A stretch of DNA of 64,000 bases from Physcia stellaris (lineage: Eukaryota > Ascomycota > Lecanoromycetes > Caliciales > Physciaceae): positions 310,001-374,000 of the forward strand of contig JABSSW010000028.1 in NCBI GenBank assembly GCA_018902385.1, read 5' to 3'. This document shows positions 1-22,375 of the stretch, in pieces. A program made the position numbers and the translations under genes. Under the pieces are notes generated by a model, which saw nothing but the letters and a program-made list of their open reading frames with translations, was not told the origin of the DNA and ran no database searches. Numbering within the stretch: the stretch's first letter is position 1; the number at the start of each line of letters is the position of its first letter.

Positions 1-79
1 ATAAAATGTAATGTGCAAAAATATCGAAATGAAAAATGTGAAAAAATCAAAAAAACAAACAAACAGTTTCATTTACATG
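1..79. other. AT-rich left flank of the transposon nest, ending in target-site duplication ACATG
   Basis: Low-complexity AT-rich sequence with no CC, GG or CT dinucleotide that I can see, so it looks mutated like the neighbouring transposon. Its last five bases (75-79, ACATG) match the five bases after the far-right LTR (22371-22375). That makes them the duplicated target site of the outer element. No gene is visible. Confidence 0.7.
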
Positions 80-280
80 TGTCAAGAACAATGTGTGAAA
101 GAATGTAAAAAACTTGATTGTTAATTTTTCGAAAAAGTTTCGAAATATATATTGTAAAATTATGTGACAAATGATTTGTTTTTCAACGACAAGCACGTTT
201 TTATTTCAGATTTCGTCATTGACAATCGTCAAACAGATTTTCGTCTCATAGTCGACAAGCTAGTTTGCAAATTTCTAACA
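80..280 (-). repeat. 3' LTR of outer element A1 (mutated)
   Basis: 201 bp, TGTCAAGA...CTAACA on the plus strand. It aligns without gaps to the right-hand LTR. By hand count about 40 positions differ, nearly all C-to-T or G-to-A relative to the right LTR, and they fall on CpC and CpT steps. Confidence 0.9.
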
Positions 281-997
281 ATTTGTTTCAATCAAAATAA
301 ACGACATCGTTTCGATGTCATGCTTTTTAATCATGTCAAACAATATTCGTGTTGATATTTTTAATTTTTTTTTTAATTATTGAAGTCGATGAAATCGTCG
401 TATCAAAATATCAATTGCAACGACTGATGACGTGACTGAAAATGTGATCAATTCGACTGTGATTGACTTTCGAATCAAAGCAAATGATTCGATGTCAAAA
501 ATTAACGAAAATGTCGTGTTCGATTTACGTAAAATGACAATTGCGAATCGTTGATTTGTTGATGATTGATTGACAAACGTCGACGTCGATATTGTGAAAA
601 GTTTTCTAATCAATGAAATAACGACGAAAAATTTTGACGAAATGACAATTTTGATTAACGAAATGACAAAAGATTTTTGCAAACAATTTGACAAAAAAAT
701 CGTAAAACGTAAAACGTTTTCGTAATTTTGTACAAAATTTTGAACGTCGTCGAATTTTGATAAATTTCGTCATTTATCGTATTGTGATTTTCAATTTTTT
801 TATTTGACAAAATATTCATCGTCACGACGTTTGATTTGACGTTTGTTGATAAATTTTTCAATTTTTCATGATTTGATTCGATTCGTGTTTTTTTCAACGA
901 AAACAAAATCTGATTGATTTGAACGTGAACGATTGAAAAAATCGTTTATTGATGAAAAAACAAATTTCAATTGAATTATGAATAAAACGAAATGTAT
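281..997 (-). other. A1 interior between integrase and 3' LTR
   Basis: Mutated element DNA with only short open stretches (655-906 and 377-694 on the minus strand) shared with A2 at 6632-7366. A degraded C-terminal integrase extension such as a chromodomain would be expected here, but I cannot identify one. Confidence 0.4.
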
Positions 998-2182
998 ACG
1001 TCAATGATTCGAAAATTTCAATCGATATGTCAGATTGTCAATTTTTTCAAAAATTTTGAAAAAATCGATATATTGTTGATTCAACTTTTTATCGAAAATT
1101 TCAGTTGTCGATATGTTGTAATCATGATGCAATTTAATCAATGCATAATCGTCAATTTTCATGAACAAAAATTGATGTTTGCGATCATAATAATATTTGT
1201 TGATCATTTGAACGAATGCAATGACATCAATCACTTCAAAACGAACACGAGTAATTGCATTGAAAAAAATTTTTGCGAAAAATTTTCGATTGTCAGTTGC
1301 GAAAGATTTTTTCAAATCGTCGATAAAATCAAATGTAACGAATTGACGAAACATGTTCAAAAATTGCAACGAAATGAATTCGTAAAATGTTTCATTGAAT
1401 GTTTTGTAAATAATGACAAAATGAAAATTGTTGAAATGACGTTGCAATTTGATCAATATTTTAAATCATTCAATTGAATTTTTCATTGTAATCAAATAAA
1501 ATCGAAAAACAATTTCAATTATTTGATTAATTCGCTCGAATTGATCGTCAATCTGAAAATAATATGCAATTGAATAAAGCAAACGAATTTCGAATTGTTT
1601 GAAAATTGTTGTTCACATATCAAACAGAAATTTGCGATCTCGATTCGAAATTATGATTTTCGATATATTTCAATCAACAACATTTAATTTGTCGATTAAC
1701 GCGATTTTTCATTCAACGACAAATCAAGTTTTTTTGTCGACAATGAATATGAATCGTTTCGTGAATTTGCAAATGACAAATATCGTGATATTCAATTCGT
1801 CACGAGAAACAAATAAAGTCAAAATGAAATTAATGATGATTGTATGAAATGAAATCGACGAAATTAATATAAATTGTAACGAATCATACGATGCGTGTTT
1901 TTTGATTTAATATATTTAACATTTCGAACAATGTTTCAAATAGTCACGCAAATAACGAAACAAATCGCGAATATAATATGAAACGAACATTTTTTCGAAA
2001 CATTTGACATAATTCGCATGTTCGTCGTCATGAATTAATCGCAAAATGTTTGATACAACGAAATGAAAAATGCAAAATCGACGAAATTCGTAAACATGAT
2101 TATCAATGATAAAATCATTCGAACGAAAAATCAAATCATTTTTTTTTATAAAAAAATAGTTTTGCAACGTTTTCGTCGTCAA
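998..2182 (-). pseudogene. A1 integrase remnant
   Basis: The upper part has the zinc-binding HHCC arrangement: a His-x-x-Asp-Glu-His stretch, YYIRDL, then CSKC. It is followed by a C-terminal integrase region with a YDR-H-LFMK-DYAL-L-H pattern and KKLNQQY, as in fungal Ty3/gypsy integrases. The reading frame is the same throughout. It ends at a TGA where the family has Trp before Arg-Ile-His, and a TAA (from a CAA Gln codon) lies just after CSKC. Dead copy. Confidence 0.85.
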
Positions 2183-2212
2183 CGTTCAGTATTTGATTGA
2201 TTTTTTGTCAAT

Positions 2213-2929
2213 TCAAATCAATTTTGTAATCATCGAATATTCGATTGCGAAAATTTTTTTCATTTCGATTAATGAAATTGTGAACAAAACATCAAATTCA
2301 TTTTCATCAAAATTTTTGATCATTGACGCGTTGATATTATCGTTGATTAAACGTGACAAAACATCAAAAACAATGTGTTGTTTGTTTGATTTATGTCGAA
2401 TATCGAAATTGAAACGTTGAATGTAATTTGAAACACGAACAAAACGTAAATTGAATTTGTCGATTGAAATTGTTATCATCGTGATTTGATTAACAATGTC
2501 GAATGCAAATTCATGATCAATATAAACGATTGTTTTGTTTGACGAAATTTCAACAATATGTTTTGTTTTTTTGAATATTCACACAATGTTTGTTATTTTC
2601 AATTCAATCGATCAATATTTTGTTTCGACATCGATAAATAATCGATTAAAAAAAAATATCGATTTTATAACATGACGAAAAAAATATTTGTTTGATTCGA
2701 AAAAAAAAATTTTGACATAATATAGCATGACATCGAATTCGAATTTTTTGTTAACATTTAAATCAATAAATAATTGACGTTTGAAATTCGAATGAATTAA
2801 ATAAAAAAATTTTGTCAAAACGATTTGCAAAATATCGAATGAAATCAATTTTTTTGCTGTAAAATGTTGTACGCGTGTTTTCGAAAAATAAACGCGTTTA
2901 ACATTTTTTGCAATAAATTCGTTACGCAA
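2213..2929 (-). pseudogene. A1 RNase H remnant
   Basis: The N-terminal part has the FIDLN segment that corresponds to the FIDLDAS motif with a catalytic Asp. The C-terminal part has DYIQRFNFDIRHKSNKQHI, which is the family's end of RNase H (VRHKPGKQHIVPDALSR), with the Pro and Gly positions replaced. It lies in frame with RT and integrase and is cut by TGA codons. Confidence 0.8.
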
Positions 2930-2995
2930 AAATTTCGTTTTTTTGTTTTGTAATGATTTGAAAATGTCAACATAATGAACAATGTAATCACGTAA

Positions 2996-3620
2996 TCAGT
3001 CAATCAAGTCAAAATACGTTTCGAATTGTCGAAAAATGCGAAAAAATCGAAATTTGACAATTGTTTTGAATTTTTTTTCGAACGTGATTAAATCGAATGA
3101 ATCAATTTTTTGATCGAAAAGTGAAATTGATAAATAATTCAAAAAGATTTTGATAAATTTGATCGAAATGTTGTTTTTGTTTAACATTGAAAATATTTTG
3201 CGCAAATGAATTTCGTGTTCGATTTTTGTACGAGAAAATATCATTATATCGTTCACATAAGTTTTGACAAAATGACGATATTCGCGAAACAATCGATCAA
3301 TTTGACGTTGCACGTACGTCGATGAATTTTTGTAATTCATGACAATCACGTTGAAATTTTTTTGATTTTTGTGATTGACAACAATAAATTTATGTCGATC
3401 ATTTAAATGAATTCGTCATTGATAAAAAAAAATCGAACAATCAATGATTGATATGTAATCGCAATTTCGCATTACGATTATGATATTTGTTTGCAATGAT
3501 AACGAATATGCGTCAAATTGTGTTATGACATTGAGATTTTTGATGTTTATAATTACACGATTTTTTTTTTCGTCGTCAACGTTTTTTCAAACGCAAAAAC
3601 AAAAATAAAAAAAATGACGT
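2996..3620 (-). pseudogene. A1 reverse transcriptase remnant
   Basis: NYKNSSTYVQRQIDRL followed by TYVNDIMIFS corresponds to the gypsy RT segment ending in the YVDDI catalytic box; the first catalytic Asp reads Asn here. The N-terminal fingers extend towards 3620 with stops. The next in-frame stop downstream (TGA) falls where the family has Trp before LRDY. Confidence 0.85.
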
Positions 3621-4137
3621 TGATTGATTAATTCAAAATATTCGATCGATACGATGCAAATTTTCGAAAATTTTGTTTATCAATTTTTTGTTTTTTGCAT
3701 TCAAAAATACATTTTTATTTTTTTGATACACGTTTTTCTCAGTCATTTTTCAATGATATTTTTAAATTCAATTTTTTTCGACATTTTAACAAAATCGATA
3801 TTTTGTCAAAGCGTCGAAAATTTTTCAACAATTTTGACGAATGAATTTAATTCGTCGAAATTGTAAACGATAACGTCGTTAAACAAAACGATTTCGATCA
3901 ACGAAATAGAAACGTTTGTAAAAAATTTCTCGAAATCGTTATCATCGATTTTGATTGTGAAAATTTTTCGCAATTGACAATTGACATCGAAACTTGTGAC
4001 AAAATGATTACAGACGATATTGATGCTTGTGACAAGATGATTAACGACGATAAAATAGCAAACGTAATCGAAAAATTGTTATCGATTGTAATAACGACGA
4101 CGTAAATCGCGACACAAACGAAAATGAATTTTTTGAA

Positions 4138-4680
4138 TCAATTATTTTTGTGAATGAATTTTGATTTTTTGACGACGAAATATTTGACATTTTCGTCGTC
4201 GATATCGATATGAAAATCATTGAGAAAATCAATTTCAAATATTTTGTTTAATCGAAAATTTTTAAAAATCATAATTGAAAATTTTTTATCGTTGCGTACA
4301 ATAATAAATTTAATAAACACGTCAACGAAATGTGCATACAAAATGAAATTGAAATTGTCATTCGATTCAAACAAAAAATTTTTTGTAATCGACAATTCAA
4401 CATGATGAACGACGACGATTATCTCGACATGTGACGAAATAATTGTAATTTTTTTGAAATGAACAAATTGTTGAATCGTCAATTTGAAAAAACGTATTTT
4501 CAACGATATGATTATGTCGATATTATCAATTATTGCATGTCTTTTGATCATGTCAATAACGAAATTTTCGAATTCAATGATGTCATTGTTTAAAAACATA
4601 TTGATTTTCAAATTGTCAACGAAATGAATTTCACGTTTGAATAACGACGTGATTTTTTGATTATTTTTGATGTCAAACAT
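4138..4680 (-). pseudogene. A1 retropepsin-region remnant
   Basis: The segment REIHFVDNLKINMFLNNDII matches the flap-to-C-terminal part of the fungal gypsy protease (HLVDxLKAxMLIGNDI-like), with Gly replaced. The linker between protease and RT follows. It is out of frame with the RT part, so at least one indel has occurred. Confidence 0.7.
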
Positions 4681-4893
4681 ATGAATATCACATATGACAT
4701 ATTTTCAGTTTTCATGTCGATTAATGTTTAAATCACGAATTTGAAATGACGAAATCATGATACGAATGAAAATATTGAATGTTTGTGTTTTGAAAAAATT
4801 TCGATTCATAAATGAAACGTTAACATCGATGTTCAAACACACGTTTTTTGACACGACGATTACGACAAGTGCGATTTTGACTTTGACGTAATT

Positions 4894-5829
4894 TCAATCA
4901 CGAAATTCGTATTCGATGTCAATATTTGTTGACGAATCGACGTTAAAACGAATAATGATGAATTCAAACGAAATAAATGAATTCGTAAATTCAACAGACG
5001 TGATTGTGTTCAACTGATTAAATTCGTTGATTTTTTTTGTAACATCGATTGTAAACGAATTGAAATTGAAATTTTTGATCGAATATGTTTCGACGTCGTT
5101 AAAAAATTTCGATTTTTTTGAAAAAATCAAATTACAATCATCACGAAAATGACGATGTAATTCGTTATTAAATGTGAAAATTTTTTTACATCGACGACAA
5201 TGAAATAACGACGATTTGATCATTATTATCGACGCAATGAAATTGACGAAAATTTCATTTTTTGATTCGAATTGTAATAATTCAAATTTTCGTTTTCAAT
5301 ATAATAATTTTCATGCTTTTCATTAGAAAAGTTTTTGCAAATGAGTTGTGAAAATTTTTCACAAATTTTTTTTTTTCGTTGTTATTTTGATCGACAACAA
5401 AAATTTTAATTTTGTCGTCACGATTGTCAAATTCGTTTCGATTATTTTGTTTTGTGTCGCTTGTTAATCGACGTTGTGATTGATTTTTGAATTTGAAATT
5501 TGACGCGTTTTCGAAAATCAATTGCAAAAATTGTTTGTCAATTGACAAAACAAAAACGATAAATGTTTTTTGAAATGCGTTTGAAAATTGATATTGAAAT
5601 TTTTGATATTTTTGATAAACATTATTTTGAAACGTCGAATTTTGATATTGATATGAATTGTAATTTGATGATGATCAATATTCATACGAAAAATAAAAAA
5701 ATTGAAAATCGTCGACGTCAAATTGTTGTTGAAAATCGTTTTGTCGTTCACGATTTTGTTTATTGATTTGACGTTGTTTATCGATTTGATCAAAATTAAA
5801 ATTGACATGTTGAATAAATTTATGAACAA
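4894..5829 (-). pseudogene. A1 C2H2-finger/nucleocapsid remnant
   Basis: CRRCKK then ELHRHFRDDC form a Cys-x2-Cys...His-x3-His-like finger found between gag and protease in this group of fungal gypsy elements. The upstream part is Asn/Gln/Lys-rich and broken into two frames. Confidence 0.65.
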
Positions 5830-6190
5830 TCATTTTTTGTCAAATATTGATTTTGACGTCAAATGAATCGAAAAACGAAATAAAAATGATAATCGTGATT
5901 GATTCAAATATTTGCATTTTGAAATTAAAATTCAAATTATTTCACGTCATAATTAATTGATTGTAAATAGAATTGAATTCGACGATTTTAAAATGACGCA
6001 TGATATTTTGTACGTAAATTTTAAACGTTTTATCATTGCGAACATTTTGCATAATGTATTTTTCAATTTGCAAATTTTTGAAAGTTTGTGAATCACGTTT
6101 TTTGAATCGACGAATCAAATCACGACATCATTGATTCATTGATACATCACGAAACATATTTTTTTCAATTTCATTTAATTTCAATGAATG

Positions 6191-6441
6191 TCAAATGAAA
6201 ATATTATCGCGTAAACATTCGACAATGAATTCACGCATTTTGTGATCAAACGAATTTTTTTTCAAATTTTTAAATTTGTCAATAAAAACAAATACATTTT
6301 TGTAATAAATATGTCGATCAACGTTGACAATGACATTTTTGTTCTTGTCATTTTCACGACGAAAATCAAAGAAATCAATATTTTTTGAGTTTCTCAGAAT
6401 TGATTTTTCGTCATTAACATCAATCGCAATTTCATTCGAAA
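6191..6441 (-). pseudogene. A1 gag, 3' half
   Basis: Continues the gag whose 5' half lies at 21041-21612. The two halves were separated by the insertion of A2 with CGAAA duplicated at the break. It matches the end of the intact-length A2 gag frame (FDHKMREF, VECLRDN). Confidence 0.8.
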
Positions 6442-6631
6442 TGTCAAAAACAATGTGTGAAAAGATGTAAAAAACTTGATTGTTAATTTTACGAAAAAGT
6501 TTCGAAATATATATTGTAATGTTATGATGACATATGATTTGTTTTTCAACGACAAACACGTTTTCATTTCAGATTTCGTCATTGACAGTCGTCAGGCAGA
6601 TTTTCGTCTCATAGTCGACAAATTTCTAACA
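6442..6631 (-). repeat. 3' LTR of nested element A2
   Basis: 190 bp. It shares with 20846-21035 a 12-bp deletion near the outer end and one inserted base relative to the 201-bp A1 LTRs. This pairs these two LTRs and excludes pairing with the A1 LTRs. Confidence 0.9.
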
Positions 6632-7366
6632 ATCTGTTTCAATCAAAATAGACGACATCGTCTCGATGTCAACAATGTTTTTTAGTCATATCAAGCAATA
6701 TTCGATATTTCTAATTTTTCTTTTTTAATTTTTGAAGTCGATGAAAACGACGCATCAAAGTATCAATTGCGAGCGTCGACGACGTGATTGAAATCAACGA
6801 AATGACGAAAAACGTGATCAATTCGATTGTGATTGACTTTCGAGTCAGAACAAACGCTTCGATGTCAAAAATTATCGTCGTTGTCGTGTTCGATTTGCGT
6901 GAAATGACAATTGCGAATCGTTGATTTGCTTGAAATTGATTGACAAACGTCGATGAACTAATTGCGAAAAAAAATTAATCAATGAAATGATGGCGAAAAA
7001 TTTTGACGAAATGATAATTTTGATCAACGAAATGATGAAAAACTTTTGCAAACGATTTGACAAGAAAATCGTAACACGTAAAACGTTTTCGTAATTTTGT
7101 ACAAAATTTTGAACGTCGTCGAATTCAAATAAATTTCGTCATTCATCATATTGTGATTTTCAATTTTTTTATTTGACAAGATATTCATCGTCACGACGTT
7201 TGATTTGACGTTTGTTGATAAATTTTTCAATTTTTCATGATTTGATTCGATTCGTGTTTTTTTCAACGAAAACAAAATTTGATTGATTTGAACGCGAACG
7301 ATTGAAAAAATCGTTCATTGATGAAAAAACAAATTTCAATTGAATTATGAATAAAACAAAATGTAT

Positions 7367-8503
7367 ACGTCAATGATTCGAAAATTTCAATCGATATGTC
7401 AGATTGTCAATTTTTTCAAAAATTTTGAAAAAATCGATATATTGTTGATTCAACTTTTTATCGAAAATTTCAGTTGTCGATATGTTGTAATCATGATGCA
7501 ATTTAATCAATGCATAATCGTCAATTTTCATGAACAAAAATTGATGTTTGCGATCATAATAATATTTGTTGATCATTTGAACGAATGCAATGACATCAAT
7601 CACTTCAAAACGAACACGAGTAATTGCATTGAAAAAAATTTTTGCGAAAAATTTTCGATTGTCAGTTGCGAAAGATTTTTTCAAATCGTCGATAAAATCA
7701 AATGTAACGAATTGACGAAACATGTTCAAAAATTGCAACGAAATGAATTCGTAAAACGTTTCATTGAATGTTTTGTGAATAATGACAAAATGAAAATTGT
7801 TGAAATAACGTTGCAATTTGAACAATATTTCAAATCATTCAATTGAATTTTTCATCGTAATCAAATAAAATCGAAAAACAATTTCAATCATTTGATTAAT
7901 TCGTTCGAATTGATCGTCAATTTGAAAATGATATACAATTGAATAAAACAAACGAATTTCGAATTGTTTGAAAATTGTTGTTCACATATCAAACAAAAAT
8001 TTGCGATCTCGATTCGAAATTATGATTTTCGATATATTTCAATCAACAACATTTAATTTGTCGATTAACGCGATTTTTCATTCAACGACAAATCAAATTT
8101 TCTTGTCGACAATGAATGTAAATCGTTTCGTGAATTTGCAAATGACAAACATCGTGATATTCAATTCGTCACGAAAAACAAATAACGTCAAAATGAAATC
8201 AATGATGATTGTATGAAATGAAATCGACGAAATTAATATGAATTGTAACGAATCATACGATGTGTGTTTTTTGATTTGATACATTTGACATTTCGAACAA
8301 TGTTTCAAATAATCACGCAAATAACGAAACAAGTCGCGAATATAATATGAAACGAACATTTTTTCGAAATATTTGACGTAATCGACATGTTCATCGTCAT
8401 GAATCAATCGCAAAATGTCTGATACAACGAAATGAAAAATGCAAAAACGACGCGATTCGTAAACATGATTATCAATAATAAAATCATTTGAACGAAAAAT
8501 CAA
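7367..8503 (-). pseudogene. A2 integrase remnant
   Basis: Counterpart of the A1 integrase and better preserved. HDDEHV, YYIRDLFRYL, HCSKCQMYQ and the start of the catalytic core (FHTIIIDFIL) read through in one frame, followed by the C-terminal part with KKLNQQY. The CAA codon lost in A1 after CSKC is still Gln here. Confidence 0.85.
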
Positions 8504-8578
8504 ATTAATTTTTTTTTTATAAAAAAACAGTTTTGCGACGTTTTCGTCGTCAATGTTTAATATTTGACTGATTTTTTG

Positions 8579-9300
8579 TCAATTCAAATCAATTTTGTAA
8601 TCATCGAATATTCGATTGCGAAAACTTTTTTTCATTTCGATTAATGAAATTGTGAACAAAACATCAAATTCATTTTTATCAGAATTTTTGATCATTGACG
8701 CGTTGATATTATCATTGATTAATCGTGACAAAACGTCAAAAACAATGTGTTGTTTGTTTGATTTATGTCGAATATCGAAATTGAAACGCTGAATATAATC
8801 TGAAACACGAACAAAACGAAAATTGAATTTATCAATTGAAATTGTTGTCATCGTGATTTGATTAACAATGTCGAATGCAAATTCATGATCAATATAAACG
8901 ATTGTTTTGTTTGACGAAATTTCGACAATATGTTTCGTTTTTTTGAATATTCAAACAATGTTTGCTATTTTCAATTCAATCGATCAATATTTTGTTTCGA
9001 CATCGATGAATAATCGATTAAAAAAAAATATCGATTTTATAACATGACGAAAAAAATATTTGTTTGATTCGAAAAAAATTTTTTGACATAATATAGCATG
9101 ACATCGAATTCGAATTTTTTGTTAACATTCAAATCAATGAATAATTGACGTTTGAAATTCGAATGTATTAAATAAAAAAATTTTGTCAAAACGATTTGCA
9201 AAACATCGAACGAAATCAATTTTTTTGTTGTAAAATGTTGTACGCGTGTTTTCGAAAAATAAACGCGTTTAACATTTTTTGCAATAAATTCGTTACGCAA
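8579..9300 (-). pseudogene. A2 RNase H remnant
   Basis: Same two motifs as A1: FIDLNVNK near the start and DYIQRFNFDIRHKSNKQHI near the end. Stops separate the pieces. Confidence 0.8.
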
Positions 9301-9374
9301 AAATTTTGTTTTTTTGTTTTGTAATGATTTGAAAATGTCAACATAATGAACGATGTAATCACGTAATCAATCAA

Positions 9375-9719
9375 TCAAATCAAAATACGTTTCGAATTGT
9401 CGAAAAATACGAGAAAATCGAAATTTGACAATTGTTTTGAATTTTTTTCGAACGTGATTAAATCGAATGAATCAATTTTTTGATCGAAAAATGAAATTGA
9501 TGAATAATTCAAAAAAATTTTGATAAATTTGATCGAAATGTTGTTTTTGTTTAACATTGAAAATATTTTGCGCAAATGAATTTCGTGTTCGATTTTTGTA
9601 CGAAAAAATATTATTATATCGTTCACATAAATTTTGACAAAATGACGATATTCGCGAAACAATCGATCAATTTGACGTTGCACGTACGTCGATGAATTTT
9701 TGTAATTCATGACGATCAC
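9375..9719 (-). pseudogene. A2 reverse transcriptase remnant (palm)
   Basis: YVQRQIDRL and YVNDIIIF are present. About 100 bp upstream on the coding strand the RT is interrupted by element B; the rest of the N-terminal region resumes at 16750. Confidence 0.85.
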
Positions 9720-9825
9720 GTTGAAATTTTTTTGATTTTTGTGATTGACAACAATAAATTTGTGTCGATCACTTGAATGAACTCGTTATTGATAAAAAAA
9801 AATTGAACAATCAATGATTGATATG

Positions 9826-10000
9826 TGATACGAACACAGATAATTGTTTGATGATTGCTAGTTCGCGCTAAATAATTGCTTGATGATTGCTAACTCGCGC
9901 TAAACTGACTAGCTGTACTTAAAGAAATTTCTACTCTAGCTAGCAATCCAATTCACTTACACTCATTGATATCGGTTTTTAGTAACTGACTATTCTAGCA
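9826..10000 (+). repeat. 5' LTR of element B
   Basis: 175 bp, TG...CA ends, with an internal near-repeat around the motif TTCGCGCTAA. It differs from the right LTR at roughly 20 positions, all C/T or G/A transitions in both directions, so both LTRs were mutated independently after insertion. Confidence 0.93.
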
Positions 10001-10002
10001 AA

Positions 10003-10013
10003 TGATAACATCA
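10003..10013 (+). promoter_or_regulatory. Candidate primer-binding site of B
   Basis: TGATAACATCA two bases after the 5' LTR of B, identical to the site in the A family although the LTRs are unrelated. This suggests that both families use the same tRNA primer. Confidence 0.5.
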
Positions 10014-11405: not shown

Positions 11406-12758
11406 ATGAATTCAGCTTTTCAAGCAACTATCACGACTGTCGTTAGTGTCGCCGTTATTCAGATTATCGAAAATATTAAAACAGAAATACGTCAAAAAAT
11501 GCAACAGATCAATCAGCGAGATCAGCAAAAATCAGCTGAATCACTCGATTCATTCGACTCATCTGAAGATGACAATGATGACAATGACAATAGTCAATTT
11601 CAGTCGAAACATTTAGACTTTTTCGACTCGTTTCATGACGACAAATTTGTAACTATCGACGCAACTATGAAATTTATTAGCGAGAGCATCGTCTTTCGTG
11701 ACGTTCACTTGTTCATGATTAAAGCAAAAAATTTCGCTGTTACAAAAAACGAAAACATCGTACGTCGCAATCTTTTTCAATGTTTAAAGAATGACGTTTT
11801 GAACTGATATACGTCACTTCTTATCGACATGAAAAAGAATTTCTTGCTACTAAATCAAAATTTAAATCAGTGAAAAAAGTATTTAGTAAAAAAATTTCGA
11901 GAATCGTCAACTAAAGTCATGAAAAAACTCGTCAAAAAATCATACAGTATGACGAATGCACAACATGAACGTGAATTTAGAAAATACGCGCAAAAGATAA
12001 TTCGATTAAACAAATCAGTTGAATTGTCAATATTCAATCAATTATTACAGATTTGAAACGAGTTCGACGTTGACTTTCAATTACACGTCAATAAATTTAT
12101 CAATGACATCAAACTGAATGATTTTTTACGAGATTTGAATGATCGAAAACATTCATGATGAAAACTGACTAACAAACAATTTTTCGAACAGATTGATCGA
12201 CGAAAAATCAATGTCAGGAATAAAAATATTCGCGAGCAACGTGAAAATAAACAATTACAACGTGACACGTCGAAAATAGATTATCGCGATCGCGATCAGC
12301 CAAATGTCGAATATGACGACAATGCTGTTGATAAATATACTCAGAACGATTACTTTCGATTTGACATTCAGTCAACTTTCATTTTTGTTCAATTTTCGAA
12401 TTTCGTATCGCAAAACAATTATGTTTCGCAAAATTATGCTCAAACTTGAAATCAAAATCGTGTTTACATGCAACAACAACAATCAGCAAATCAATTCTCA
12501 AACGTACAGCAACAGCAATCGATTTTGTCAGCTCTTTCAACACGCAAACAATTGATCGCTGATTTCTCGAATCAAAATCAACGAAATCAGCAAAAAGAAA
12601 ACGCGTCAAATTCGAATCGTCGATCATTTGTATTTTTTAACGTCAACGTTCGCTCGTTTCAGTCAATGTATCATAGCGTCAACGTCGACGACGCTAACGT
12701 CAACGATGAAAACGTTTATTATGACGACAAAGCAATAAACGATATTATTTTCGTCTGA
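11406..12758 (+). pseudogene. Element B gag region
   Basis: Part of the long B frame upstream of the finger. It contains a Ser/Asp/Asn-rich acidic stretch around 11520-11600, a basic Arg/Lys-rich region and a Gln-rich stretch around 12460-12600 (QQQQSANQF). Its only stops are TGA. Assigned to gag by position. Confidence 0.6.
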
Positions 12759-12851
12759 CATATTGTCGCGAAACGTTTTGCTGTCATCGAAGAAAATCAA
12801 AATCAATCTGGATCTGTTTTTCTGAACGACTCAATCTTTCATTACGATTCG

Positions 12852-13133
12852 ATGACTATGAATGCGTCGAAATTTTCACTTGACGTTGACGAATCAAACG
12901 TTAATCACGTAATTTTTTTTGATTACACGTGTCGAATGTGCAAAATCGACTTTTATTTCAACAACAAGTTACATCGTCACGTTCGTATTTGTCGCAAGAA
13001 ACGTGTCAATAATTTGCCGACTATTGAGTCAATGAACGTTTTTCACAAACACTCAATCGATGACAAAGTATTATCGATCGTCGAATTTACAATTATCATT
13101 ATTTTCGACGTCGATTTCAACTTTCGTAAATGA
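12852..13133 (+). pseudogene. Element B C2H2-like finger
   Basis: CRMCKIDF, NNKLHRHVRIC: the same finger type as in A1 and A2, between gag and protease, in frame with both. Confidence 0.65.
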
Positions 13134-13163
13134 CACTATGCTAAATTAAAAATCAGTCACAGT

Positions 13164-13892
13164 TTGAATGACAAATTAATCAAGATCTGCGCGAATATCG
13201 ACTGTATTATGTTTTTGATTGACAAAAAATATTTATTGAAAATTAAACTCGATGTCACAATTCACAAAACAAAACAATCAATTCGAGTACATGACATCGA
13301 CGACAAATTACATGACAGCTCAGAGTATACAAAGTTGAACTTTTACGTTGTCGATACGTTATCAAATCAGTCATCAACTATAACTCACTTTCGTCGTGAA
13401 ATTCATTTAGTGAATGATTTGAAAACTCACGTTTTGCTCGATATCGATATTCTAAAACTCGAGCAAATAATACTTGACATGAGCAAGCATATTATCATCT
13501 TTTTCGTTTGTAACAATTTGACAGCTTTCATGAAATTGACTTTCAAAGATCAGCGCATTGTGCGAGCAATAAAATTCGTTAACAAAATCACTATATCGTC
13601 GCATATTTGTTTAACTGTATTTGTCAAAATACGCGATCAAAATCTGTCAGTAGATAGAGACTACAACTTCGAGTCTAAGCAAAATTTTCAACAATTAAAA
13701 TTCGAAGATGATTTTTTCAATCACATTATCGATGCTCATCTCGTCGTCGTACAAATACGAAACGCTATCAATAAATCAGTAATTCTGTCAAAGCATGCAA
13801 AAATTGACATGTTACGCGATTTCGAGAAGAAAGATTGTTATCATGCTTCTTTTGACGATCGACATTTAACAGTCGTTTCGTCACGTAGCTGA
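13164..13892 (+). pseudogene. Element B retropepsin
   Basis: Starts with a segment equivalent to the C-x-DTGCTxSLID active-site strand, here reading NIDCIMFLID, so the catalytic DTG is altered. It continues with FRREIHLVNDLKTHVLLDIDIL, the family's second half. Ends at a TGA. Confidence 0.7.
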
Positions 13893-14340
13893 ACGAAGAC
13901 GTTACGTAATGTGATCATGATGAATCTAATCGACGTTTTCGTTGATTTTACTACGTTTAACATCTTTTCGACTATTATCTCTATGCAAATCAATTCGTCA
14001 GCTAACTCAGTATCTGATGTATCGATATTCGAAACTACTGTGTCATTTATTTCGTTGAAAATCGTCATGTCAAACGAGATCATCGTTTTTGACGATTCGT
14101 TTGTTTACAATCGACTTTTCACGATAGCGAAAATTTATTTTGAAATTTGACGTGACATCGACGACACGATCAATGTGTTCGAAAAACAATGAATGTCTGT
14201 ATCTATTCTATCTGACGCTAAGCCGAAAATCAACAAGATGTATTCATTTAATTCGAAAAATAAGAAAGTAGTCGACAAAAAGTTCGACCGATTACATAAA
14301 AAGAGCAAAATGACGTGAACTAGTCAATCTACTCCGTATG

Positions 14341-15266
14341 ACTATTCAGTTTTCGTAGTATGACGTATTGTCAACGAGCAACGCAAAAATCGCGTTGTAA
14401 TAGATATTCGTGAACTAAATAAAATTTCGATGTTCGACGCTTATTTCATGTCGTTACAATCAGACATTCTGTCAGCAGTTATCGATTGCTCGTACATATC
14501 GATGATAAACTGTGTCGATTTCTTTCATCAATGATTAGTACGAATGATGAATAAACACAAATTGACAGTGATCAGTCATCGAGACAGCGAACAATGAAAC
14601 GTAGCTGTCATGAATTATCGCAATTCTTCTGTTTACGTTCAGCGACAAATCGATTCGATTTTACGAAAATATCGACACTTTGCTAGAGCGTATGTAAACG
14701 ACATAGTAATATTTTCGAACTCGTTAAAGAAGCATTTACGACACTTGAATCAAATTTTCGCTTTTTTCAAGCGCATGAACATAGTTCTCAAAATTAGCAA
14801 AACTTTTTTTGATTATTCGATCATATCACTGCTAAATCAGCGAGTCGATAGTTTGAGATTGACTATCGCAACGAATAAATTTGAAACTATTCTCGTTTTA
14901 GTTTTTTTTCAGATTTTTAAACAGCTGAAAATCTATTTAGACAAAATCGAATGATTGCGTCAATACGTATCATATTATGCTCAAAAAGCTTTGTCATTAC
15001 AAAAGCGTAAAACTCGTCTGTTACGTCATGCATTTAACAAAGAGCGATTTCGTCAGCAACATAGTCGACGTATTTCAATCGATGATTCGTCGTCGATCGA
15101 AATAAACGTTTTTAATCAGCTACAGAGCGCTTTTAGCCGATCAACGTTTCTAATTCACTTCGACAAAACTAGAATTCTGTATATCGACGTGAACGCCAAC
15201 AAGGAGCGCGACTTTGACATTATGATTTATCACGTTAATCAGAACGGCGATTCATATATCTTGTGA
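14341..15266 (+). pseudogene. Element B reverse transcriptase and start of RNase H
   Basis: RVVIDIRELNKI-type fingers (VVIDIRELNKISMFDAYF), then CVDFFHQ, NYRNSSVYVQRQID and ARAYVNDIVIF (catalytic box, first Asp now Asn), then SYYAQKALSLQKRKT and LYIDVNANKE at the start of RNase H. TGA replaces Trp after VFVV, after FFHQ, after EQ before NVAVM, and before LRQY. RNase H is cut short: the family's middle and end are not recognisable. Confidence 0.85.
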
Positions 15267-15281
15267 AAAGATGAAAACGAA

Positions 15282-16421
15282 ATGACATATGATAATCTAT
15301 CGAAAAATCAGCGTGATATCATGACAAGATTGCCAACTGCAATGCAAAATAACAATGATTTTATCGTTGTTGAACTCAACGATGCACTAATCATAAATCT
15401 TGATAACACGTTTGATTTCGACTCAATCAACTTTGTCAATCTCAATATTGTTTTTGTTATCGCCAATATCAGCAAGACAAAGCAAGCATTCTCGATCGCC
15501 AATAACAGCAAAACAAAATCGACATTCTCAATCGTCGTTAGCAAAAACGACGTCGATGATGAAAACTCAATGTCGACGAACAAAGTCGACAAAACTCAAA
15601 AAAAGAAACGAGTTACGAGACGTGTCAATGCATTCAAACGACGCAAACAAATTCATCTATTGATTCGCGATTTGATGAATGACGAAATCGTGAAAAACGA
15701 AATTCTGATAAAAAGATCGACAAACAATCAGAAAAAATCGAAAGAATCGAAAAAGTTTGACAACGACGAGAACGCTGATAACGCGCAAATCAACAGAAAA
15801 ATAATGTTCGAAAAAGACATGAAGTCAATCGACATTGACAAGACAATTGACAAAAGCATCAAAATTGATTTCATCAAGACGCTCAAGTCGAAAAAGAATG
15901 AGAACAACGAGAACAAAACAATTGACAAAACAATTGACAAAAGCATCAAAATTGATTTCAACAAAGCGCTCAAATCGGAAAAAGATGAGAACAGCGATGA
16001 ATTGCTCATTGATATTCAACTGAACAAATTTCGATATCATGATTTTTTGTTCAGCGAAAAACTAAAGAACGTCGAAATTCTTTTGAGTTTCGCACGAAAG
16101 TTCGACAATCAGATTTTTGAGCTATTTCAGCGCATCGAGATCATTCTAACAGATTTCGATGAATGTACGATGTCAATTGCTGAAAAAATCGCAATCGACG
16201 AATTTGTCGAGACGTATCGAATCTGTCGAAATCAAAAAACGAAAATGAAAATCACACTGATCAACAAACGTTTTGATTTAGTCAAATTGATAATTCAACA
16301 TATCGACTCAATCGTCAAAGATGTTGATCGCAATTTTCTAAACGTCTGTTACGTCGTCGTTCGCGAAAAACGCTTTCGATCGAACACTAGCATCGAACAT
16401 GATGTTTTCAAGAAATACTGA
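15282..16421 (+). pseudogene. Element B Lys-rich C-terminal tail (379-residue open stretch) in place of integrase
   Basis: Same frame as RT, separated from it by one TGA. The stretch is rich in Lys, Asp, Asn and Ile. It has a basic patch (KKKRVTRRVNAFKRRK) and an internal duplication around 15835-15985 (DKTIDKSIKIDF twice, followed by K-LKS-K-EN). The last third looks more globular. No HHCC or DDE integrase signature is visible and I do not recognise the family. After it the frame continues through four TGA codons to TAG at 16491. It is the longest stretch in the AT-rich block without any stop. Confidence 0.7.
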
Positions 16422-16569
16422 GCAAAATATGAATGAGCAGAACGTTGACGCTGAAATTTATACATCGCTAACAAAATGATCACGAAAAATTAGAACGCTG
16501 AATATGAAACACAGACAAAATGAACATGAAATCAGCGTGAACGCTGAGCTTTTTCTCGTTGCGAGATGT

Positions 16570-16744
16570 TGATACGAGCACAGATAGTTGCTTGATAATT
16601 GCTAACTCGCGCTAGATAATTGCTTGATGATTGTTAGTTCGCGCTAAACTGATTAGCTGTATTTAAGAAAATTTCTACTCTAGCTAGCAATTCAATTCAC
16701 TTACACTCATTGATATCGATTCTTAGTAGCTGACTACCCTAGCA
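16570..16744 (+). repeat. 3' LTR of element B
   Basis: 175 bp, gap-free match to the left LTR apart from transitions. It is followed by the ATATG target duplication and then by A2 sequence that continues exactly where A2 broke off at 9825. Confidence 0.93.
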
Positions 16745-17437
16745 ATATGTAATCGCAATTTCGTATTGCGATTATGATATTTGTTTGCAATGATAACGAA
16801 TATGCGTCAAATTGCGTTATAACATTGAAATTTTTGATGTTTATAATTACACGATTTTTTTCTCGTCGTCAACGTTTTTTCAAACGCAAAAGCAAAAATA
16901 AAAAAATGACGTTGATTGATTAATTCAGAACATTCGATCAATGCGATGCAAATCGTCGAAAATTTTGTCAATCAATTTTTTGTTTTTTGCATTCAAAAAA
17001 TACATTTTTGTTTTTTTTGATACACGTTTTTTTCAGTCATTTTTCAAAAGTATTTTCATTCAATTTTCTTTCGACATTTCGACAAAATCGATATCTTGTC
17101 AAAGCGTCGAAAATTTTTCAACAATTTTGACGAAAAAGTTTAATTTGTCGAAATTGTAAACGATAACGTCGTTAAACAAAACGATTTCGATCAACGAAAT
17201 AAAAACGTTTGTAAAAAACTTTTCGAAATCATTATCATCGATTTTGATTATGAAAATCTTTCGCAATTCAACAATTGACATCGAAATTTGTGACAAAATG
17301 ATTACAAACGATATAACGATTGATATTTGTGACAAAATGATTAGCGACGATAAAATAACAAACGTAATCGAAAAATTATTATCGATTGCAACAACGACGA
17401 CGTAAATCACGACGTAAACGAAAATGAACTTTTTGAA

Positions 17438-17980
17438 TCAATCATTTTTGTGAATGAATTTTGATTTTTTGACGACGAAATATTTGACATTTTCGTCGTC
17501 GATATCGATATGAAAATTATTGAAAAAATCAATTTCAAATATTTTGTTTAGTCGAAAATTTCTAGAAATCATGATTGGAAATTTTTTATCGTTGCGTACA
17601 ATAATAAACTTAATAAACGCGTCGACGAGATGTGCATACAAAATGAAATTGAAATTGTCATTCGATTCAAACAAAAAATTTTTTGTAATCGACAATTCAA
17701 CATGATGAACGACAACGATCATTTCGACATGTGACGAAATGACGATAATCTTTTTGAAATAAACAAATCGTTGAATCGTCAACTTGAAAAAACGTATTTT
17801 CAATGATATGATTATGTCGATATTATTTATCATTGCGTGTTTTTTAATTATATCGATAACGAAATTTTCGAATTCAATGATGTTATTGTTTAAAAGCATG
17901 TTGATTTTCAAATTGTCAACGAAATGAATTTCGCGTCTGAACAACGACGTGATTTTTTGATCATTTTTTGTGTCAGACAT
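17438..17980 (-). pseudogene. A2 retropepsin-region remnant
   Basis: 180-residue open segment equivalent to A1 4138-4680, with REIHFVDNLKINMLL. Part of the Asp protease; the active-site DTG region lies upstream and is degraded. Confidence 0.7.
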
Positions 17981-18193
17981 GTGAATATCACATATGACAT
18001 ATTTTCAATTTTCATGTCGATTAATGTTTAAATCACGAATTTGAAATGACGAAATCATGATACGAATTGAAATATTGAATGTTTGTGTTTTGAAAAAGTT
18101 TCGATTCATAAATAAAACGTTAACATCGATGTTCAAACACACGTTTTTTGACACGACGATTACGACAAATGAAATCTTGATTTTGACGTAATT

Positions 18194-19113
18194 TCAGTCA
18201 CGAAATTCGTATTTCGTGTCAATATTTGCGAACGAGTCGACGTTAAAGCGAATAATGATAAATTCAAACGAAATAAATGAACTCGTAAATTCAACAAACG
18301 TGACGATATTCGACTGATTAAATTCGTTGATTTTTTTCGTAATATCGATTGTAAATGAGTTGACATTTTTGACAAAATAAATTTCGACGTCGCTAAAAAA
18401 TTTCGATTTTTTTGAAAAAATCAAATTACAGTCAACACGAAAATGACGATGTAATTCGTTGTTAAATGTGAAAGTTTTTTTACATCGACGACAATGAAAT
18501 AACGATGATTTAATCATTATTATTGACGCAATGAAATTGACGAAAATTTCATTTTTTTGATTCGAATTGTAATAATTCAGATTATCGTTTTCAATATAAT
18601 AATTTTTATGTTTTTTTTTCGCAGATGAATTGTGAAAATTTTTCACATTTTTTTTTTTTTCGTTGTTATTTTCGTCGATAACAAAAATTTTAATTTTGTC
18701 ATCACGATTGTCAAATTCGTTTCGATTATTTTGTTTTGTGTCGTTTATTAATCGACGTTGTGATTGATTTTTGAGCTTGAAATTTGACGCGTTTTCGAAA
18801 ATCAATTGCAAAAATTGTTTGTCAATTGACAAAGCAAAAACGACAAATGTTTTTTGAAATACGTTTGAAAATTGATATTGAAATTTTTGATATTTCTGAT
18901 AAACATTATTTTGAAACGTCGAATTCTGATATTGATATGAGTTGTAATTTGATGATAATCAATATTCATACGAAAAATAAAAAAATTGAAAATCGTCGAC
19001 GTCAAATTGTTGTTGAAAATCGTTTTGTCGTTCACGATTTTGTTTATTGATTTGACGTTGTTTATCGATTTGATCAAAATTAAAATTGACATGTTGAATA
19101 AATTTATGAACAA
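18194..19113 (-). pseudogene. A2 C2H2-finger/nucleocapsid remnant
   Basis: CRRCKKTF, NNELHRHFR and VDC give the finger seen in A1. It is preceded by an Asn/Lys/Asp-rich region and, in a second frame, the C-terminal part of gag. Confidence 0.65.
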
Positions 19114-19474
19114 TCATTTTTTGTCAAATATTAATTTTGACGTCAAATGAATCGAAAAATGAAATAAAAATGATAATCGTAATTGATTCAAATATTTGCA
19201 TTTTGAAATTAAAATTCAAATTATTTCACGTCATAATTAATTGATTGTAAATAGAATTGAATTCGACGATTTTAAAATGACGCATGATGTTTTGCACGTA
19301 AATTTTAAACGTTTTATCATTGCGAACATTTTGCATGATGTATTTTTCAATTTGCAAATTTTTGAAAATTTGTGAATCACGTTTTTTGAATCGACGAATC
19401 AAATCACGACATCATTGATTCATCGATGTATCACGAAACATATTTTTTTCAATTTCATTTAATTTCAATGAATG

Positions 19475-20188
19475 TCAAGTGAAAACATTATCGCGTAAAC
19501 ATTCGACAACGAATTCACGCATTTTGTGATCAAACGAATTCTTTTTCAAATTTTTAAATTTGTCAATGAAAACAAATACATTTTTGTAATAAATATGTCG
19601 ATCAACGTTGACAATGACGTTTTTGTTTTTATTATTTTCACGACGAAAATCAAAGAAATCGATATTTTCTGAATTTTTTAGAATTGATTTATCGTCATCA
19701 GCGTCAATCGCAATTTCATTCGAAAAATCAAAATCAAAAAAACGTCGATCATCACGTTCATTGTTGCTTTCGACGTTATCTTGTTGCAAACGTTGAAATT
19801 GTGTTGTAAAATCGACAAATGTTTGAATAACGATTGCAGTTATCGTTGCTGTAATAATTGTTTGAATAGTCGAATCAAGTTGATTTTGATCTTGCTCTTG
19901 ATCAGACATGACAGAATCAATGAATTGTGTGTAAATAGTTTTTTTTGCTGAAATATCACGAGTATTGACAGAATTGAAATCAGAAACAGAATCGATCGAC
20001 GTGTTTGACGTGATAATTGATAAGTAATTAAATGTTATCGATGAAAATGAAAAATTTGAATCGTGAATTTCTGACACGTTATTGCGTCGAAATTTTCTGA
20101 AAGAAAGAGCGTCAAACGATATTGATGAAATCGACGAAATTGACGTTTTTAGTTTGAACAAACGAAAAATCGAAAAAAATCGAGTCAC
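19475..20188 (-). pseudogene. A2 gag remnant
   Basis: 237-residue open segment: Ser/Ile-rich N-terminus, a QEQDQNQ stretch, then acidic DFSNEIAIDADDD and the FDHKMREFVVECLRDN region. It has no homologue outside this family that I recognise. It is assigned to gag by position between 5' LTR and finger/protease, and it is cut off by stops on both sides. Confidence 0.7.
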
Positions 20189-20831
20189 TGAATTCTGAAC
20201 TGATTACAGTTGAAAATTTGATCAGAAAGTTTTGAAAGATTTTCGAGTTACGAAAGCGTTCGATATCGAGACGAAATTGAATCAAAACGTTTTGAAACGA
20301 AACGACGTCGTTGACTCACTGAAATGAATAAGCAAAATCGCTGATTCGAGTTCTAAACGATTTGAAAATTTTGACGATCAGAATTTTCATCGTACGTCGA
20401 TCAGTATCATTGAGTAATGAGCAGAAAACGTGATCGATTTGTAAAAAGTCGTAAATGAATCATGTAAATTGAATGATTTCGTTGAAAATGTTGAAAACTG
20501 ACGTCAGAATGAGTTACAGATGACTTGTCGTGAAAGCTTTTTGATGATTTAAAATTAATTGAAAAAGTCTTTCGAATTATTCGTACAATAAACAAAAAGA
20601 AAATTTTTCACAAACTGATAAAACGAAAAATAAAATAAAATGAAATGAAAGTTTTTCACAGTTAAATGAATAGCATTGACGTCAAGATTCACAACATCAA
20701 CAAACAAAAACGAAAGCGACAAAAAAAATTAGAAAAACTGATAGACTTGCGTGCAATGCAAATTGCAAAATTGACAAAATCTTGATGATGTTGCTGCAGT
20801 AAATAATGCAAGCAACGACTGATATGATAAA

Positions 20832-20842
20832 TGATGTTATCA
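20832..20842 (-). promoter_or_regulatory. Candidate primer-binding site of A2
   Basis: Same 11-mer TGATAACATCA on the coding strand, three bases from the 5' LTR, as in A1 and B. Confidence 0.5.
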
Positions 20843-20845
20843 AAT

Positions 20846-21035
20846 TGTCAAAAACAATGTGTGAAAAGATGTAAAAAACTTGATTGCTAATTTTACGAAA
20901 AAGTTTCGAAATATATATTGTAATGTTATGATGACATATGACTTGTCTTTCAACGACAAGCACGTTTTCATTTCAGATCTCGTCATTGACAGTCGTCAGA
21001 CAGATTTTCGTCTCATAGTCGACAAGTTTTTAACA
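20846..21035 (-). repeat. 5' LTR of nested element A2
   Basis: 190-bp partner of 6442-6631, followed by the CGAAA target duplication and then by the resumed gag of A1. It keeps a few more C at CpT than its partner. Confidence 0.9.
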
Positions 21036-21040
21036 CGAAA

Positions 21041-21612
21041 AGTCAAAATCAAAATCAAAAAAACGTCGATCATCACGTTCGTTGTTATTTTCGATGTTAT
21101 TTTGTTGAAAACATTGAAATTGTGCTGTAAAATCGACAAATGTTTGAATAACGATTGCAATGATCGTTGCTGTAATGATTGTTTGAATAGTCGAATCAAA
21201 TTGATTTTGATTTTGATTTTGTTTTTGATCAAACATAACAAAATCAATAAATTGTGTGTAAATAATTTTTTCAATTGAAATATCACGAATGTTGACAGAA
21301 TTGAAATCAAATGCAAAATCGATCGACGTGTCTGACGTGATAATAAATGAATAATTGAATGTTACAAACGAGAATGTGAAATTGAAAATTTGAATTTTCG
21401 ACACGCTATTGCGTCGAAATTTTTGAAAAGAAAACATCAAACGATATTGATGAAATTGACGAAATTGACGTTTTTAGTTTGAATAAACGAAAAATCGAAA
21501 ATGAAATCGAGTCATTGAATTTTGAATTGATTACAGCTGAAAATTTGATCAGAAAATTTCGAAAAACGTTCGAATTGCGAAAACGTTCGATATCAAAACG
21601 AAATTGAATCAA
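21041..21612 (-). pseudogene. A1 gag, 5' half
   Basis: Matches the first two thirds of the A2 gag, including the SISSISFD, TSDTSID and IIYTQFIDFVM stretches, in two frames. It ends exactly at the A2 target duplication. The leader from 21613 to the primer-binding region also aligns with the A2 leader. Confidence 0.8.
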
Positions 21613-22155
21613 AACGTTTTGAAACGAAACGACGTCGTTGATTCATTGAAATGAATAAACAAAATCGCTGATTCGAATTTTGAAAAATTTGAAAATTTTA
21701 GCGATCAGAATTTTCATCGTACGTCGATCAATATCGTCGAGTAACGAGCAAAAAACGTAATTGATTTGCAAAAAGTCGTAAATGAATCACGCAAATTGAG
21801 TGATTTCGTTGAAAATTGACGTCAAAATGAATTACAAATGATTTATTGTGAAAATCTTTTTGTTGATTTAATTAATTGAGAAAGTTTTTCGAATTATTCG
21901 TACAATAGATTAGAAAAAAACCTTTCGCAAACTGATAATAGAACGAAAAATGAAATAGAATGAGATGAAAATCTTTCACAGTCAAATGAATAAAATTGAC
22001 GTAAGATTTACAGCATCAACGACATCAAGAAAGCGAAAACGACAAAAAGTAAAATTCAAAAAACTGACAGATTTGCGTACAATGCAATGCAAAGTTGACA
22101 AAATCTTGATGATATTGTTGCAATCAATGATGCAAACAACGCTGATATGATAAAA

Positions 22156-22166
22156 TGATGTTATCA
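22156..22166 (-). promoter_or_regulatory. Candidate primer-binding site of A1
   Basis: On the coding strand TGATAACATCA lies three bases inside the 5' LTR. The same 11-mer sits next to the 5' LTR of A2 and of B. A TGG start, usual for tRNA-primed sites, would become TGA under the mutation bias seen here. The role is inferred from position. Confidence 0.5.
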
Positions 22167-22169
22167 AAT

Positions 22170-22370
22170 TGTCAAAAACAATGTGTGAAAGAATGTAAAA
22201 AACTTGATTGCTAATTCTTCGAAAAAGTTCCGGAATATATACTGTAAGGCTATGTGACAAATGGCCTGTCTTTCAACGGCAGGCACGTCTCCACCTCAGA
22301 CCTCGCCATTGGCAGTCGCCAGGCAGGCCTCCGCCCCATAGCCGGCAAGCTAGCCTGCAGGCTCCTAACA
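22170..22370 (-). repeat. 5' LTR of outer element A1 (almost unmutated)
   Basis: 201 bp with normal GC content from about 22,205 onward, unlike any other copy in the window. It serves as the near-ancestral reference for reading the mutation pattern. One G-to-A change near its inner end shows that the mutated tract stops just inside this LTR. Confidence 0.92.
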
Positions 22371-22375
22371 ACATG

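Follow-up and report, generated by a model that had tools for sequence, protein, structure and literature searches.

C-to-T mutation at CpC and CpT, with CpA and CpG nearly spared, in repeats of the lichen fungus Physcia stellaris

Nested retroelements in the window and their mutation context

The window studied here is a 64,000-nucleotide stretch of the Physcia stellaris genome (positions 310001–374000 of contig C28), and its first 22 kb are occupied by long terminal repeat (LTR) retroelements in which C-to-T change has fallen on CpC and CpT and nearly spared CpA and CpG. A preliminary description, made from the letters alone, had placed one element, A1, at 80–22370, with mutation resembling repeat-induced point mutation (RIP) in an inverted context. 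The LTR element is borne out, but it is not a single simple one, being the outermost of three nested elements with intact 5-bp target-site duplications (TSDs), B in A2 and A2 in A1. The genome sequence searched comprises 43,974,083 bases in 147 contigs; the published assembly is larger, with 46.57 Mb in 196 contigs (PMC7513301). The features are as follows, with the strand given where assigned.

80–22370: LTR retroelement A1, outermost, TSD ACATG at 75–79 and 22371–22375; CpC nearly gone save in the last ~140 bp
80–280: left LTR of A1, mutated, from alignment to the right LTR
6442–21035: A2, a second copy of A1's element, inserted in A1, TSD CGAAA at 6437–6441 and 21036–21040
9826–16744: element B, an insertion in A2 with LTRs of 176 nt, TSD ATATG at 9821–9825 and 16745–16749
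14610–14951, forward strand: part of a reverse transcriptase within element B (PF00078, E 5.4e-8, passing the curated cut-off)
22170–22370: right LTR of A1, bordering unique DNA, clean from ~22230 to its end by the positions of CC and GG
22376–64000: gene-bearing control region, with CpC at normal frequency by dinucleotide counts

The reverse-transcriptase fragment (RVT_1) is the only Pfam match above its cut-off among ten open reading frames of the block, and an Rfam search of the window gave no match.

The two LTRs of A1 (80–280 and 22170–22370) were aligned without gaps over 201 columns, and sites were scored by their 3' neighbor on both strands. There are 42 mismatches, of which 41 are C>T or G>A and one is A>G. 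By context, C-to-T change was found at 23 of 25 CpC, 17 of 27 CpT, 1 of 30 CpA and 0 of 16 CpG sites, so that the spectrum counted by hand in the preliminary description differs from the recomputed one by at most one site. The composition of the block agrees with the earlier account of a sequence almost devoid of CC and GG and rich in CA, TG and CG, with TA not enriched: positions 1–22170 hold 19 CC and 9 GG (28 together), and the odds ratios are 0.03 for CC, 0.37 for CT, 1.30 for CA, 2.77 for CG and 0.41 for TA, the last in fact depressed. The corresponding values for 22171–64000 are 0.95 (CC) and 0.74 (TA). Judged by the usual RIP thresholds (product >1.15, substrate ≤0.75, composite >0; PMC7882544), the block escapes detection, as had been anticipated: of its 43 overlapping one-kb windows, none is flagged. 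In the unique part, a single window out of 82 has a positive composite index.

Element B is the latest insertion of the nest. Its region (10001–17000) has a GC content of 0.34 with CC and CT odds of 0.06 and 0.66, compared to 0.27, 0.01 and 0.16 in the outer elements (1–10000). The lesser mutation of B is as expected if CpC is lost first and CpT later.

Direction, context and endpoint of mutation in further repeats

Two more retroelement families were examined through element matches in the genome. F1 is copia-type (RVT_2) with 35 matches, of which the reference and 21 of the 34 others were used; F2 is RVT_1-type, with 40 of 218 candidates scored and the reference and 23 of the 39 others used. 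Both references are clean copies with open frames, and the pooled counts take in the clean partners L037, L038 and L043. In F2, C-to-T change was found at 2417/2685 CpC (.900), 2685/3621 CpT (.742), 174/3162 CpA (.055) and 42/2651 CpG (.016) sites; in F1 the counts are 868/1007 (.862), 1328/1765 (.752), 253/1859 (.136) and 125/1428 (.088), respectively. C>T and G>A are about equal in each mutated copy and other changes are few, which is the C:G to T:A change on both strands known from RIP. CpC is the most mutated context in all 41 mutated copies (19/19 and 22/22 in the two families), and CpA leads in none of this non-random set of repeats. The canonical RIP pattern of preferred CpA and enriched TpA is absent (the CpA counts above; TpA odds ~0.4), as is the targeting of CpG that would mark CpG decay or methylation induced premeiotically (MIP).

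The clean copies decide against a composition inherited from elements that were poor in CC and GG from their origin. Most examined copies of each family are indeed CC-poor, but the clean copies have CC odds of 0.75 and 0.92, where an already depleted clean copy would have refuted the preliminary description, and the right LTR of A1 retains 25 CpC sites, 23 of them mutated in the left LTR. The chance that the pattern was inherited is practically negligible.

The base 5' of the mutated C has little effect in F2 (ACC.88, CCC.92, GCC.89, TCC.91). This bears on two sources of damage that would act apart from any repeat recognition, ultraviolet (UV) light at dipyrimidines and an AID/APOBEC-like deaminase. 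Lichens are sun-exposed, and CC and CT are dipyrimidines; UV also damages C with a preceding T or C, yet TCA (53/1218), CCA (45/729) and TCG (17/1101) are nearly spared in F2 while TCT is changed at 691 of 982 sites. AID/APOBEC enzymes read the 5' side of C, the side almost without effect here, and under either agent non-repeat DNA should be mutated as well. A rule set by a pyrimidine at the 3' (+1) position is compatible with a C5-methyltransferase but not with UV or deaminases, whose action depends on the 5' neighbor or on both neighbors, and we find these two sources hardly credible.

Partly mutated copies allow the contexts to be ranked by rate. In L044, the changed sites are 90/116 CpC, 70/158 CpT, 3/138 CpA and 0/116 CpG, with 4 transversions. 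The values of –ln(unhit) in L044, L045 and L046 are 1.50, 1.92 and 2.83 for CpC, and 0.59, 0.73 and 1.18 for CpT; CpA stands at 0.022 in each of the three and CpG at 0. The CpC rate in such copies is ~2.5 times the CpT rate. Over the final ~370 bp of its F2 match, L044 has 33 of 43 sites changed on one strand and 5 of 45 on the other, and the remainder shows no strand bias (p 0.23). This tract, picked after looking and from one of six copies examined, hints at mutation in bursts or an episode.

These copies also bear on slow ageing of the MIP kind, in which repeats would be methylated at CpC and CpT and then lose the bases by spontaneous deamination, with no active mutagenesis. A DIM-2 match is present in the genome, DIM-2 of Neurospora is reported as CpT-preferring (PMC13297926), and slow loss could spare non-repeat DNA too. 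Against this, the mutated copies are young: L044 carries 163 C>T/G>A changes versus 4 transversions and 10 opposite transitions, and L047 has 241 versus 6 and 8. The proportion in L044 indicates a fast, directed change; the rate at CpC and CpT is estimated at a hundredfold or more over background, and the one-strand tract, with the limits given above, hints in the same direction. Ageing is considered unlikely.

To follow CpC depletion beyond the window, one-kb windows were surveyed by GC content at loci that are not a random sample of the genome (copy number was verified for families A, F1 and F2; loci L001–L012, L033–L035 and L048–L081 are omitted). The 125 windows with GC <0.32 comprise 15 in the window itself, 94 at LTR-match loci and 16 near F1/F2 copies. 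CC odds fall below 0.2 in 123 of these 125, in 34 of 42 windows with GC 0.32–0.40, and in 0 of 104 with GC ≥0.40. Among the 125, TpA odds exceed 1 in none and CpA odds are below 0.9 in one. The change is confined to repeated DNA, as in RIP, with the windows of GC ≥0.40 spared and a boundary at ~22230; non-repeat DNA of the examined stretches is untouched. The RIP-like mutation with inverted context first described for A1 thus holds in the family A LTR pair, in the 41 F1/F2 copies and in 123 of 125 AT-rich windows.

The endpoint of such a process can be predicted. A simulated change of all CpC and CpT sites in two clean fragments gave GC contents of.242 and.233 with CC and CT at 0, and odds of 1.50/1.42 for CA, 3.54/3.90 for CG and.48/.30 for TA; changing CpA only gave TA of ~1.7 and retained CC. 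The most mutated F1/F2 copies, at GC.23–.25, and the low-GC windows lie close to the simulated endpoint of CpC and CpT loss, with GC down to.21 in a few windows outside these copies. If CpA is spared and GG is mutated, TGG>TGA should be the only common new stop codon. This change was found at 70/75 TGG codons in F1 and 65/66 in F2 (together 135/141), compared to CAA/CAG>stop at 11/209 and 3/255 in the two families (together 14/464) and TGG>TAA at 4 and 1. Read with genetic code 4, in which TGA is Trp, 11 of 41 mutated fragments have open frames, whereas the standard code leaves none of the 41 open. Fifteen stop-to-stop frames lack Gly, Pro and Trp altogether, out of 19 of at least 200 aa, a set preselected for few CC and GG, which partly forces the loss of these residues. 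It is noted that the mutated F1/F2 fragments (L036–L081) are open or nearly so with TGA as Trp, and gene finders may annotate them as code-4 genes.

Related sequences appear among database proteins. A mutated F2 frame of 264 aa, used as query, gave 215 matches; among the 120 of these that were listed, the 37 closest (≥64% identity) were counted against the clean codons. Clean-copy Pro (CCN) is retained at 0/619 positions and Gly (GGN) at 0/336, while His/Gln (CAN) is kept at 483/612, Arg (CGN) at 388/459, Met at 145/175, Leu (CTY) at 215/380 and Trp at 49/50. The retention of Trp despite total loss of Gly would be explained if these proteins were predicted with TGA as Trp. The 37 may include P. 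stellaris itself and the search favors relatives that resemble the query, so the counts speak to existence and not frequency; the mutation context in these records is known from protein spectra alone. DNA of the relatives was looked for in viral contigs and none was found.

A more distant group (P0230–P0314, including P0230 and P0249, 40–45% identity) also has many members without Gly and Pro. Visual comparison places Trp in P0250 and P0302 opposite Arg in P0241, which suggests a context of CpC plus CpG in other organisms. The group was not counted as sharing the Physcia context, since Trp for Arg would mean that CpG was mutated.

The protein counts also bear on a sequencing artefact, in which Nanopore would have called methylated C as T and polishing would have left the error in place. 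The culture was raised from ascospores and the assembly is based on Nanopore reads and Canu, but it passed two rounds of Illumina polishing (PMC7513301). Both strands are changed at 86–90% of pooled CpC sites with normal CpC in non-repeat DNA, and loss of Pro and Gly with His/Gln and Arg mostly kept recurs in the 37 proteins from records of other source. An artefact is very improbable, and it was rejected on these points, as were UV, a deaminase and pre-existing composition on those given above.

C5-methyltransferase genes

A search of the genome with the PF00145 family found three C5-methyltransferase genes, on contigs C3, C5 and C6, and no fourth. The search for RID- or DIM-2-type genes proposed in the preliminary description thereby returned a DIM-2 match and two genes of RID class. 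The C3 protein matches PDB 9bap/9baq (9bap, E 1.9e-188), which we take to be the Neurospora DIM-2 structures of PMC11315935, making the C3 gene the probable DIM-2. The C5 gene is RID-class (P0075, 932 aa, PF00145), with relatives in the lichens Usnea and Alectoria among the best 120 of 550 matches. The second RID-class gene, on C6 (L013, 2407–4060), has relatives that include a protein of Heterodermia aff. obscurata (P0008). In its 401-aa frame, PCQ and EET occur in place of the EN of the DIM-2 row, a pattern that presumably marks the RID class, and two TGA codons within its Pfam match fall in intron-like stretches. An intact RID/Masc1-class gene is found in C5, with C6 as its paralog.

In a tree of 169 columns, C6 falls in a 33-row clade (100/95) separate from the C5 clade. 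The C6 clade joins proteins of Aspergillus candidus and Talaromyces islandicus (38 rows, 100/90); its deeper position is unsure due to long branches. Among the 12 rows long enough to cover the target-recognition stretch, the sequence is ITTQGG in C5, ITTSGG in Usnea, VTTSGG in Alectoria and, for the C6 type, IATGGG in both Physcia and Heterodermia. DIM2 depends for its activity on threonines of its target-recognition domain, and its substrate preference is stated to await study (PMC11315935); the residues of the Physcia enzymes may correspond to these threonines. The structure model of P0008 has a mean predicted local distance difference test (pLDDT) score of 78 and a predicted template modeling (pTM) score of 0.81; its target-recognition stretch (~429–460) is poorly predicted, so that the model adds nothing on specificity. 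The earlier suggestion of an enzyme differing from RID fits a divergent second RID-class gene with an altered target-recognition stretch, a candidate for the agent.

The process, known systems and significance

We propose that the repeats of P. stellaris have probably been mutated by RIP or a RIP-like process with an inverted +1 preference (CpC>CpT>>CpA, CpG), for which a RID-class enzyme is most likely responsible. What has been demonstrated is the context, the sparing of non-repeat DNA in the stretches examined, the endpoint as predicted and the signature in the stop codons. Repeats would be recognized, possibly with homology as the trigger and in the sexual cycle, and C would then be changed to T on both strands where the next base is a pyrimidine, with CpA and CpG nearly spared. 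A RID-class C5-methyltransferase may set the +1 preference, and methylation followed by deamination is one possible chemical route. Apothecia are abundant in P. stellaris (PMC7513301). For the acting enzyme, the divergent C6 paralog is the leading candidate at a little under an even chance; the C5 RID ortholog is a less probable agent, and DIM-2 a still weaker one.

Several observations weigh against this proposal. The repeats were sampled through element or gene matches and not at random. Clean copies persist despite partners 96–99% identical to them (L042/L043, L036/L037), which means that duplication alone is no constant trigger. The last ~140 bp of the right LTR of A1 (22230–22370) are unmutated although they are repeated, with the rest of the block near CpC saturation; this end adjoins non-repeat DNA and may reflect an edge effect. 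Changes at CpA and CpG climb alongside other changes, to.247 and.162 in the most changed copies of F1 and to.13 and.07 in those of F2; either weak true action at these sites or ordinary ageing may account for them. F1 also shows 14 TAA and one TAG beside its 70 TGA. In four of the related proteins, P0213 (6/17), P0215, P0220 (2/10) and P0221 (3/10), fewer than half of the CAN codons are kept. Clustering of changes along six F2 copies was not significant (12 tests, p 0.06–0.98).

Like Neurospora crassa RIP, which involves RID and the DIM-2 pathway, the Physcia process changes C to T on both strands in repeats, and RID- and DIM-2-class genes are present. It is unlike Neurospora in that CpC leads and TpA is not a product; the preference there is CpA>CpT>CpG>CpC (PMC5496416), with a strong CpT share in Tad1 as well by RIPCAL (PMC2621366). 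Trichoderma reesei RIP also changes C to T in repeats, but CpC comes last there and first in Physcia (CpA about equal to CpG, then CpT>CpC, one sign being lost in the text; PMC5496416). Magnaporthe oryzae, Botrytis cinerea and Sclerotinia have CpT as a main or secondary target (PMC4352252), and CpT to TpT is a dominant form in alignment-based analysis of RIP-capable fungi (PMC7882544). In contrast to Physcia, the signatures of Magnaporthe, Botrytis and Sclerotinia (CpA, CpT, CpG) include CpA and leave out CpC. Microbotryum, rusts and Tuber have CpG signatures (PMC4352252), and these fungi, with Rhizoctonia solani AG8, share a non-CpA context with Physcia, in which CpG is spared. In AG8, CpC changes have on average the closest spacing of the four CpN classes, 185 bp in genes and a sparser 301 bp in repeats (PMC4014442); of the published examples of frequent CpC change in the literature searched, AG8 comes nearest. 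RIP is also described in Cladonia rangiformis, likewise a lichen fungus, which has homologs of RID and DIM-2 as well as AT-rich retroelements (PMC12542154). Its most mutated sequence has 10–20% GC, versus 23–24% from CpC/CpT-only change in F1/F2, although some Physcia windows stand at 21%; its mutation context is probably broader than CpC and CpT.

CpC-first repeat mutation was not found in the passages and listings searched on RIP, Physcia, lichens and the order Caliciales, a scope outside which lie subscription papers such as Clutterbuck 2011. The CpC passages of PMC2621366, PMC5496416, PMC4522978, PMC5555474 and PMC4014442 contain no CpC-first repeat preference, the main text of PMC7493409 has no CpC passage, and the passages of PMC7513301 hold no RIP analysis of P. 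stellaris. A CpA preference shared across the kingdom has been claimed from 130 strong species in four classes, Lecanoromycetes not among them, and Physcia is unnamed in the main text (PMC12543289).

The preference in Physcia is the reverse of usual fungal repeat mutation. Indices based on CpA, and the claim of a shared CpA preference, can overlook heavily mutated DNA, as in the block where 0 of 43 windows was flagged. Gene annotation is affected as well, given the 11 of 41 mutated fragments that are open in code 4 and in no case in the standard code. According to the record, no catalysis by RID has been detected in vitro (PMC13297926), and a natural RIP that favors CpC and spares CpA offers a clean comparison pair for asking whether RID itself chooses the mutated base. 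We suggest, tentatively and as somewhat less than an even prospect, that a lichen-fungal lineage runs CpY-targeted RIP (Y, pyrimidine), in which a divergent C6-type RID paralog, whose clade also contains a protein of Heterodermia aff. obscurata and 31 more database proteins, has shifted the +1 reading from CpA to pyrimidine. If so, RIP specificity would be set by the RID-class enzyme and switchable in evolution, and pseudogenes in such genomes would lose Gly, Pro and Trp codons and mimic genes of a code in which TGA is Trp.

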